The notes under the pieces were generated by a model, which searched no databases, had not been told where the DNA came from, and was given only the letters and a program-made list of their open reading frames with translations. From NCBI RefSeq assembly GCF_964355755.1, contig NC_092674.1, positions 5,275,001-5,339,000 on the forward strand: a DNA stretch of 64,000 nt. Reading direction: 5' to 3'. Below are positions 35,001 to 37,737 of the stretch, piece after piece (within the stretch, counting starts at the first letter, position 1; every line of letters begins with the position of its first letter). A program made the position numbers and the translations under genes. The stretch is from Antedon mediterranea (Eukaryota; Echinodermata; Crinoidea; Comatulida; Antedonidae).

Positions 35001-37737
35001 CTGTAAACTATTCTAATATTTCGTTTTTGTTGCTCTTTACAGTGTTTGCAGGCTTTACAGTTCTTACATGAGAATGGTGTGATCCACAGAGATATTAAGA
35101 GTGATAATATACTGTTAGGAATGGATGGAAACGTCAAATTAAGTATGTATCGCATTTTTATTGTCTGGTTATAGATTAATCCCAGTATCGAATTTCTGAA
35201 TCAATAAATTATTACAATTATCATCATCATTTTCTTTATTATTATCTATTCACCTCTGTCCTATAATGATCATTAAAATCATATCCACAATAGCCTTATA
35301 GTCATAATCATTGTTGTTATCATGTATATGTATCACTACCATACTTAAGCATATCACTACCATATATCACATCACACACTAGTTTGTAGTACAGACAGAG
35401 CTTTAATTGTGTGATTATTTTATACTTTTGCAGCTGATTTTGGTTTTTGCGCTCAAATAACTCCAGAAAACAGCAAGAGAACCACAATGGTAGGCACACC
35501 CTACTGGATGGCCCCAGAGGTGGTTACAAGGAAGCAATATGGGCCTAAGGTTGACATATGGAGTCTAGGTATCATGGCCATTGAGATGATTGAGGGTGAA
35601 CCACCATATCTGAATGAAAACCCTCTAAGAGTAAGTATATTTGATAGAACATTGCCAAAAGCGGTTCTTTTGAGAGTGAATCACCATATCTGAATGAAAA
35701 CCCTCTAAGAGTAAGTATATTTGATAGAACATTGCCAAAAGCGGTTCTTTTGAGGGTGAATCACCATATCTGAATGAAAACCCTCTAAGAGTAAGTATAT
35801 TTGATAGAACATTGCCAAAAGCGGTTCTTTTGAGGGTGAATCACCCTATCTGAATGAAAACCCTCTAAGAGTAAGTATATTTGATAGAACATTGCCAAAA
35901 GCGGTTCTTTTGAGGGTGAATCACCATATCTGAATGAAAACCTTCTAAGAGTAAGTATATTTGATAGAACATTGCCAAAAGCAGTTCTTTTGAGGGTGAA
36001 TCACCATATCTGAATGAAAACCCTCTAAGAGTAAGTATATTTGATAGAACATTGCCAAAAGCGGTTCTTTTGAGGGTGAATCACCATATCTGAATGAAAA
36101 CCCTCTAAGAGTAAGTATATTTGATAGAACATTGCCAAAAGCAGTTCTTTTGAGGGTGAATCACCATATCTGAATGAAAACCCTCTAAGAGTAAGTATAT
36201 TTGATAGAACATTGCCAAAAGCAGTTCTTTTGAGGGTGAATCACCATATCTGAATGAAAACCCTCTAAGAGTAAGTATATTTGATAGAACATTGCCAAAA
36301 GCGGTTCTTTTGAGGGTGAATCACCATATCTAATTGAAAACTAAGTATAAATAGGTCTTTTGTATTTTATATTGTTTGATCAGTTGTTAAGTTCCATGTT
36401 GATCATGAATGTAAATATTATGTGTGTATTGTCTTGTTTGTGTTTTTACTGCCAAGAAAACAATTATTATTGTACTATATGTATAAATGACTTAATAAAT
36501 CGAATCTGAATCTTGTATTTGACATAGCCAAGATTTGTTTATGGGCTTCTTTTCTCCACAAAAAAAGCCAATTGAGGAAAGATTGTTTTAGGCCTAGCAT
36601 AGTAGTAGATGCCTGCTGGCTAGCCTTTGTTTTAGGCCTAGCATAGTAGTAGATGCCTGCTGGTTAGCCTTTGTTTTAGGCCTAGCATAGTAGTAGATGC
36701 CTGCTGGTTAGCCTTTGTTTTAGGCCTAGCATAGTAGTAAATGCCTGCTGGCTAGCCTTTGTTTTAGGCCTAGCATAGTAGTAGATGCCTGCTGGCTAGC
36801 CTCGTTAGAGTTGGCTACAAAATTGTCATGAGCTATGATAGACTGATTTACTAGCACTTGTAATGCTGGTCTGTAGTTTGAACAAGGAACTTCAGGAAAA
36901 AGAGGCTTGTTTGAACACCTGCATAGATATAGGATTTTATTTATCATTCTTTTTTGTTGTAGGCACTATATTTGATAGCAACGAATGGTACTCCGGAAAT
37001 TCAACATCCGGACAAGCTAACGCCAGTATTTCGTGACTTTCTGTCGAAATGTTTGGATATGGACGTAGACAAGCGTGCATCAAGTGGAGAACTTTTACAG
37101 GTATTAGATTTATTTTAGCTGACATTCAACAGGATTAAACAGTATTGATGGAATAAATGATAATTCTGTCATATTTTTGTTTCCACTGTTAAACAAGAAT
37201 TTTTTTTCAGGAGACTGCTTAATTAAATAAAAGTTGAATGCAGAGTATGAGATTTATTTTAGCTGACATTCAACAGGATTAAACAGTATTGATGGAATAA
37301 ATGATAATTCTGTCATATTTTTGTTTGCACTGTTAAACAAAACTTTCAGGAGACCGCTTAATTAAATAAAAGTTGAATGGAGAGTATTTTCATGGACACC
37401 CGACTGTATTATTCACTTGGCTTTGCTCGTTGACTAGAAAGAATAGTCAATTATAATAACATTTGATTTGATGTATTTTTCTTTGTTGTTTTAATTGTCA
37501 TAATTATGCCAAGAAAAACAAATTTCCATTTTAAAGTGGACCAATAACATTTCATGAATCTTGAATTTCTCCACATTTAATTTGTAAAGATTTGTATACT
37601 ATTGTATATGTTTGTATTTAACTGTGTACTTAAATGTATTTTCTTAATTTCAGCACCCATTTCTTAGGAAATCTAAGCCGCTTCTAAGTTTGGTGCCATT
37701 AATCTTGGCTGCAAAAGAAACCCTCAAGCAACACTGA
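23044..37737 (+). CDS. PAK: p21-activated serine/threonine kinase, group I (PAK1/2/3-like), complete
   Basis: This is a cytosolic kinase switched on by GTP-bound Rac/Cdc42 that controls actin and cell motility. Coding exons: 23044-23215, 27209-27297, 28973-29132, 29588-29649, 29969-30194, 32488-32600, 34396-34533, 34656-34748, 35043-35142, 35434-35630, 36963-37100, 37654-37737; all phases agree and give 523 residues (human PAK2 is about 524). Seen in order: a PPAPPLR SH3-binding motif near residue 9; the CRIB/autoinhibitory segment [16 protein letters not shown] (65-80); a PIX-type proline-rich stretch [10 protein letters not shown]; the glycine loop GQGASGVVY (256-264); VAIK lysine 278; HRDIKSDN (366-373); DFG (386-388); activation threonine 402 in [13 protein letters not shown]; and the C-terminal LIMAAKE-like LILAAKE. 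An in-frame ATG at 23023 would add seven residues, but 23044 has the better context (A at -3, G at +4). Intron 10 carries the 80-bp donor repeat described separately. Confidence 0.95.
23350..23710. repeat. Diverged direct repeats, about 165-bp period, in PAK intron 1
   Basis: The words 'CAGTCATTTTGATACC' / 'GTTGCATTTTGATACC' occur at about 23356, 23530 and 23684, with 'GGATCCAATATGGTGGATA' / 'GGATCCAAGATGGCAGATA' between them. Three ageing tandem copies are present, giving only short spurious frames. Confidence 0.6.
25263..25366 (-). mobile_element. TA-flanked palindromic MITE, copy 4 (short)
   Basis: AAGCTCGGTCTATACTATCAAA on the left is mirrored by AGTTTGATAGTGTAGACATTAGCTT. The interior is shortened to about 60 bases. 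It lies in PAK intron 1. Confidence 0.8.
25880..25960 (-). repeat. tRNA-like sequence (decayed SINE head or tRNA relic)
   Basis: On the minus strand there is a B box, GGGGTTCGAATCCAATGACC, preceded by a tRNA-like anticodon-arm region. No intact acceptor stem or A box is seen, so I do not call a tRNA gene. Confidence 0.35.
26879..27030 (+). mobile_element. TA-flanked palindromic MITE, copy 5
   Basis: GGCTCTGTCTACACTAACAAAC on the left and GTTTGATAGTGTAAACTT on the right, with two 21-bp TATCACTACCATATTTGGG-type units. It ends about 180 bases upstream of PAK exon 2. Confidence 0.8.
28490..28649 (+). mobile_element. TA-flanked palindromic MITE, copy 6
   Basis: Both flanks are clean TA: TA|AAGCTCTGTTTACACTC on the left and GATAGTGTAGACAGAGCTT|TA on the right. 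It lies in PAK intron 2. Confidence 0.85.
29288..29455. mobile_element. MITE with AAGGCCAATTTACACA ends, copy 2
   Basis: AAGGCCAATTTACACATACG on the left and ATCTATGTAAAGTGGCCTT on the right. The internal order of blocks is reversed relative to copy 1, as expected for an element in the opposite orientation. It lies in PAK intron 3. Confidence 0.75.
30216..30460. repeat. Direct duplication of about 130 bp in PAK intron 5
   Basis: GTTCTATTTTTAGAAACCCA followed by TGACATGATGGCAAACC occurs twice (about 30279 and 30410), each preceded by a TATTCATTGAxAAGAAG word. Confidence 0.65.
30742..32178. mobile_element. 1.44-kb inverted-repeat element with 5-bp target duplication, in PAK intron 5
   Basis: The left end CTACGCTCGCGCTAA and the mirrored right end (TTAGCGCGAGCCTAG on the plus strand) match at 14 of 15 bases. 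Both sides are flanked by GGACA (30737-30741 and 32179-32183). Subterminal DNA on each side repeats CGCCAAA/TTTGGCG words. Inside, 31208-31513 is open on the plus strand for about 100 codons, but no transposase motif is recognised. This fits a non-autonomous DNA transposon, possibly with a captured fragment. Confidence 0.65.
32925..33010 (+). mobile_element. tRNA-like SINE head, second family
   Basis: The A-box-like TTGGTCTAATGGTTAGGACA and B-box-like GGGTTTGAATCTCGG are spaced as in a tRNA (Glu/Asp style). The anticodon region is not convincing and no acceptor stem closes, so this is read as the head of a SINE in PAK intron 6. Confidence 0.5.
33626..33802 (-). mobile_element. TA-flanked palindromic MITE, copy 7
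   Basis: AAGTTCTGTCTACACTATCAAA on the left and GTTTGATAGTGTAGACAGAGGTT on the right. It has two AAATATGGTAGTGAT-type units. PAK intron 6. Confidence 0.85.
34844..34976 (-). mobile_element. TA-flanked palindromic MITE, copy 8
   Basis: The right end is intact (TTGATAGTGTAGACAGAGCTT) and the left end eroded. It occupies most of PAK intron 8, which is only 294 bases long. Confidence 0.75.
35316..35403 (+). mobile_element. TA-flanked palindromic MITE, copy 9 (remnant)
   Basis: TATCACTACCATACTTAAGC, TATCACTACCATATATCAC and the end GTACAGACAGAGCTT survive; the left part is lost. It ends 30 bases upstream of PAK exon 10. Confidence 0.6.
35591..36355 (+). repeat. 80-bp tandem repeat duplicating the end of PAK exon 10 and its splice donor
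   Basis: Units begin at 35591, 35671, 35751, 35831, 35911, 35991, 36071, 36151 and 36231, with a decayed part-unit at 36311. Each is exactly 80 bases: 40 bases copied from the exon end (coding [13 protein letters not shown]) plus 40 bases of intron. The donor CTAAGA|GTAAGTATAT therefore recurs nine times. Units differ by only a few substitutions (CCACC in the true exon versus TCACC in copies; CCTTCTAAGA at 35941; GCAGTT versus GCGGTT). The unit is not a multiple of three, and any later donor brings in a TGA at 35691-35693. Confidence 0.95.
36582..36806 (+). repeat. 44-bp tandem repeat, five copies, acceptor-like, in PAK intron 10
   Basis: The unit TTGTTTTAGGCCTAGCATAG plus TAGTAGATGCCTGCTGGCTAGCCT repeats with GGCCTAGC at 36591, 36635, 36679, 36723 and 36767, so the period is exactly 44. 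Each unit holds CCTTTGTTTTAG|G, which resembles a splice acceptor. The real acceptor of exon 11 follows at 36962. Confidence 0.9.
37105..37385. repeat. Direct duplication of about 143 bp in PAK intron 11
   Basis: GATTTATTTTAGCTGACATT and the following sequence to 'TTGAATGxAGAGTAT' are present twice (from about 37106 and 37249) with few differences. Confidence 0.8.

Follow-up and report, generated by a model that had tools for sequence, protein, structure and literature searches.

The human gene IFI6 (6-16, G1P3) holds a tandem repeat, a minisatellite that, as Turri, Cuin, and Porter reportedly found (1995, Nucleic Acids Res 23:1854), supplies multiple splice donor sites. Intron gain through tandem duplication of exonic segments is likewise a known concept. 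As described in PMC4526556, two downstream IFI6 repeat units are used as donors, giving three mRNA species, and as described in PMC3039753, the repeats of another human minisatellite, MSY2 at DDX3Y, hold a transcription start. Among the matches listed for the openly licensed literature, no minisatellite with multiple splice donors besides that of IFI6 was found.

Here, we describe a tandem array at an exon end of a group I PAK gene of Antedon mediterranea, within a window of 64,000 nucleotides (C5:5275001-5339000). By its anatomy, the array appears to belong to the IFI6 kind, i.e., minisatellites with multiple splice donors: a tandem repeat stands at an exon end and each unit holds a splice donor (9/9 full copies in PAK). 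Unlike IFI6, with its unit of about 12 bp, the PAK array has an 80-bp unit, lies in a kinase gene, and presents nine donors, of which the later ones lead to a stop codon. The array also resembles tandem alternative 5' splice sites and poison exons, with several donors facing one acceptor and later choices carrying a stop, but its donors are identical and made by a DNA repeat. MSY2, also a minisatellite, lies at the 5' part of an alternatively spliced gene, whereas the description in PMC3039753 features no donor array.

The PAK gene occupies the + strand from ~23.0 to 37.7 kb of the window. A p21-binding domain was detected by Pfam in segment 27211-27297 (PF00786, 3.4e-08, over the cut-off), and the best PDB matches of the kinase domain were PAK1, PAK3, and PAK2, with PAK4-7 much weaker. 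With a p21-binding domain and a PAK1/2/3-type kinase domain both present, the gene is identified, from these predicted domains, as a group I PAK. The features relevant to the array are as follows:

35434..35630, + strand: PAK kinase exon (DFG to NPLR), 197 nt, ending within copy 1 (Pfam Pkinase 7.5e-21, PDB PAK1/2/3 matches, splice contexts)
35591..36310, + strand: the 80-bp unit in nine complete copies (TRF, copy alignment, pairwise differences)
35631..35640, + strand: donor 1 (GTAAGTATAT), presumed to be the functional donor (splice contexts, matrix score)
+80 steps from donor 1, the last at 36271, + strand: later donors (sequence)
35691..35693, + strand: TGA read in frame after splicing at any of donors 2-9 (frame check, 8/8 donors)
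36311..36361, right end approximate, + strand: worn tenth copy, donor deleted (alignment)
36583..36802, + strand: second array in the same 1332-nt intron, five 44-bp units that include acceptor-like AGs (TRF)
36963..37100, + strand: next PAK exon, beginning ALYLIATNG and ending ELLQ (PDB matches, splice contexts)

The array meets a true exon-intron boundary, copy 1 containing the end of exon 35434-35630. This exon had been called exon 10 in the first-pass annotation; the exon itself stands, its number is not confirmed, and it comes ninth among the coding exons of our partial gene model, which covers the gene from 23044 onward and in which the end of the third coding exon is not fixed. Its flanking introns measure 291 nt upstream and 1332 nt downstream, the latter beginning within the 80-bp array, and another intron of the gene is only 122 nt long. 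The next exon, 36963-37100, falls under the Pfam Pkinase cut-off when taken alone.

Each 80-bp unit consists of 40 exon and 40 intron bases, and nine full copies at 35591-36310 are followed by a worn tenth. TRF reported the array at 35590-36341 with period 80, 9.4 copies, 98% match, 0% indels, and a score of 1441, the highest of the 29 TRF rows in the 64-kb window; chance falls far short of explaining nine collinear copies of 98% identity. The first-pass annotation had described an exact unit in nine copies plus a worn part-copy. Its counts hold, but the copies are not quite exact: each full copy carries 0-2 substitutions relative to the consensus (copies 3, 6, and 9 carry none), and pairwise differences among the nine average 1.39 of 80, with a maximum of 3. 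Such low divergence agrees with its suggestion of a recent or homogenised expansion, and the array is, judging from these copies, young or homogenised. The exonic CTAAGA and the following GTAAGTATAT (donor AGA/GTAAGTATAT) are kept in 9/9 full copies, as had also been noted, while the worn copy, from 36311 to ~36361, aligns with other deletions besides the ~10-base one that removed its donor. At one codon, copy 1 reads CCA (Pro, matching PAK1) and copies 2-9 and the worn copy all read TCA (Ser); because of this split, the duplicates trace to one founder, and coding copy 1 stayed distinct from them. Copy 1 leaves the protein unaltered.

A search of the genome (354,431,138 bases, 18 contigs) with the 80-bp unit, by a procedure that passes over very common words, returned ten matches, all within the PAK array, and a dispersed element was excluded as the identity of the unit on that ground. 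The same kind of search, with the same treatment of common words, found the second array's 44-bp unit in that array only. The 44-bp units carry an acceptor-like TTTGTTTTAG/GCC, and one intron accordingly has both repeated donors and repeated acceptor-like sites. Four AGs of the 44-bp array score 3.1-5.0 with a small matrix, inside the range of real acceptors, and splicing of donor 1 to any of these four would meet a stop after one codon.

Several other observations concern the surroundings of the array. In the next intron, a tandem duplication of ~144 bp (37101-37400) starts at the donor, with GTATTAGATTT at 37101 and GTATGAGATTT at 37245; this partial donor duplication is the second in the PAK gene. 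Scattered over the window, several short arrays of a 21-bp repeat resembling CATATCACTACCATATTTGGG and its reverse were reported by TRF:

5061-5193, 28556-28605, 33666-33712, 47326-47383, 48225-48294, 60622-60706, 61619-61665: 21-bp repeat arrays (TRF)

On the minus strand, at ~46.6-49.2 kb, lie exons of an NAD-dependent epimerase/dehydratase gene (PF01370 and PF16363 over the cut-off at 49008-49220), a putative UDP-glucuronate decarboxylase (UXS1) as assigned by eye. Rfam gave no match at gathering score to a known structured RNA in 35000-37700.

The position of the intron that begins in the array is old. A kinase at C1:40.57 Mb in the same genome, with STK3 and STK4 (MST2, MST1) as best matches (7.2e-59), is interrupted at the matching point, PMR/AIFMIP, in phase 0; this MST1/2-type kinase and PAK agree in both the place and the phase of the intron. 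As in intron gain by tandem duplication, splice-site sequence has been duplicated here and 12 bases are common to the starts of the PAK intron and the next exon, but unlike in a recent gain the position is old, and a recent gain of the PAK intron by tandem duplication was excluded because the MST1/2-type kinase has an intron at the same place. The 12-base likeness, spotted after the fact, places TATATTTGATAG in both the intron start (35631-35647) and the next-exon start (36963-36978) at a nearly equal offset; seven other introns compared had at most 7 such bases, and among 19,851 pairs of 40-base stretches drawn at random from the window, 17 had at least 12 in common.

Next, we considered whether nine intact donors speak for selection. 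Tandem arrays of period at least 10 make up 5.9% of fifteen 8-kb genome samples (120 kb in all); within the window their share is 5.2%. Three RGTAAGT words spaced 72-102 bases apart were counted at 4274 places and a backwards-read control pattern at 4536 (one array may contribute many places to such counts), and donor words within arrays are therefore ordinary in this genome. An argument from intact donors to selection was rejected, as the mean difference among the copies is just 1.39 of 80: given near-identity throughout the copies and the commonness of donor words in arrays, nine intact donors are no evidence of selection and simply follow from recent expansion or homogenisation. An array that includes a coding exon end is nonetheless rarer than array density implies, since the kinase coding matches at 36 loci, 23,274 bp in total, have 0 bp inside arrays, compared to 5.4% of their flanks. 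This comparison covers array overlap with coding sequence only, a set of 30 loci having consisted mostly of long single-frame kinase matches, and all 36 loci were kept in the count, including one place entered twice (L010, L032) and one overlapping pair (L030, L031).

The nine donors score equally, at 9.8 bits on a small matrix built from the eight other donors of the PAK gene, whose own left-one-out scores range from -4.6 to 11.0; GTAAGT stands at 5/8 of these other donors. The first-pass annotation had spoken of nine near-equal donors, which is borne out for their sequence but left out of account their position. When donor 1 is joined to 36963, the frame stays open through 37100. Splicing from donors 2-9 would lengthen the message by 80-640 nt, and 8/8 of the predicted messages run into the TGA at 35691-35693 after 20 added codons, as had been anticipated (a stop within 21 codons). 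The exon would lengthen from 197 nt with donor 1 to 837 nt with donor 9, from which 692 nt of intron remain to the acceptor. In local folding, donor 1 was the most open of the nine (0.066 vs 0.017-0.057, and 0.041 vs 0.012-0.032), which weakly favours it.

Published tests of donor choice bear on which of these sites is used. As reported in PMC9225289, five human minigenes, each with a pair of identical strong donors between introns of 365 nt, used the upstream donor exclusively, while transcriptome-wide the upstream member of near-equal donor pairs leads in only 60%; shorter exons are favoured, and near-equal donors favour the upstream site if both introns are long and the downstream site if both are short. 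In the designed library of PMC6783452, the first of two consensus donors, 2-77 nt apart, was predominant. Given this upstream preference together with the intron and exon lengths found here, donor 1 is expected to dominate, with minor leakage.

We thus favour, at a probability of roughly two in three, a minisatellite that was born at the PAK exon end and is tolerated because the first donor wins. An 80-bp segment across the old exon end would have been duplicated in tandem and later expanded or homogenised, with copy 1 serving as functional exon end and donor. The splicing machinery would define a 197-nt exon between two long introns and pick the first among equal donors, so copies 2-9 would be intronic duplicates, silent or seldom used. 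Where a later donor was chosen, the message would gain 80-640 nt and reach the TGA at 35691-35693, leading to message decay or to a kinase truncated ahead of the final subdomains; leakage into such truncated or decay-prone messages is possible. We infer that nearly all splicing uses donor 1, with low leakage, and that the array is near neutral. Against this explanation, the cited tests used human cells with two donors, compared to nine here, and the 122-nt intron in the PAK gene means that splicing in this animal may follow intron definition, under which downstream donors are preferred. The short donor spacing in the designed library (2-77 nt), the modest 60% upstream lead across the transcriptome, and the absence of arrays from the sampled kinase coding matches also count against it.

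The best-surviving alternative, raised in the first-pass annotation, is a poison-exon dial, in which later donors are used appreciably, messages that reach the TGA go to decay, and copy number, varying between individuals, sets PAK output. The eight extra donors have an identical score and one common stop, and a premature stop in the alternative form, as expected of a poison exon, appears in the predicted message for 8/8 later donors. Near-identical copies also suggest ongoing length change, and two downstream repeat units do serve as donors in human IFI6 (PMC4526556). Yet equal donors in long-intron settings were reported to favour the upstream site (PMC9225289, PMC6783452), and the donors here bear no sign of selection, so that we regard the dial as unlikely. 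Since both human minigenes and the designed library favour the upstream donor, strong preference for the first donor is probably the likelier reading. The fuller form of the dial, a rheostat in which the number of identical donors sets the share of PAK diverted to stop-containing forms and PAK output is inherited via repeat number, we hold to be quite unlikely.

The array could also be an assembly artefact, the true locus having fewer copies, or one. Tandem arrays are liable to length errors in assembly, and a single assembly was available here; however, the copies are told apart by several distinguishing substitutions, the last copy is worn, and the assembly comprises just 18 contigs, which leaves an artefact decidedly unlikely. 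Intron definition, if it operates as the 122-nt intron in the PAK gene would allow, might instead lead to frequent choice of a late donor near 36963, making the full-length kinase a minority message, in line with the reported downstream preference for near-equal donors flanked by two short introns (PMC9225289). Here, however, both flanking introns exceed 250 nt, with 692 nt left even from donor 9, and the cost would be high for a conserved kinase; we consider this reading improbable. Finally, although 8/8 of copies 2-9 offer an in-frame open 36-nt stretch with AG before and GT after (12 residues or a one-residue variant), their use as micro-exons adding 12 residues each to the kinase is highly improbable, as these AGs score -3.0 to -1.0 vs 2.2-11.5 for the ten PAK-gene acceptors left one out and neighbouring micro-exons would be parted by introns of 44 nt.

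Taken together, the array is a natural experiment in splice-site choice rather than a proven switch, with the first donor most likely the only one in normal use. Nine sequence-identical, equally spaced donors in a conserved kinase gene amount to a natural dose series for donor choice, against which candidate rules for choosing among equal donors can be set: order along the message, length of the exon, or proximity to the acceptor. The PAK array thereby offers a test of donor choice in vivo, in an animal beyond the human systems studied so far, and any leakage to later donors would make copy number a simple inherited means of tuning a signalling kinase.
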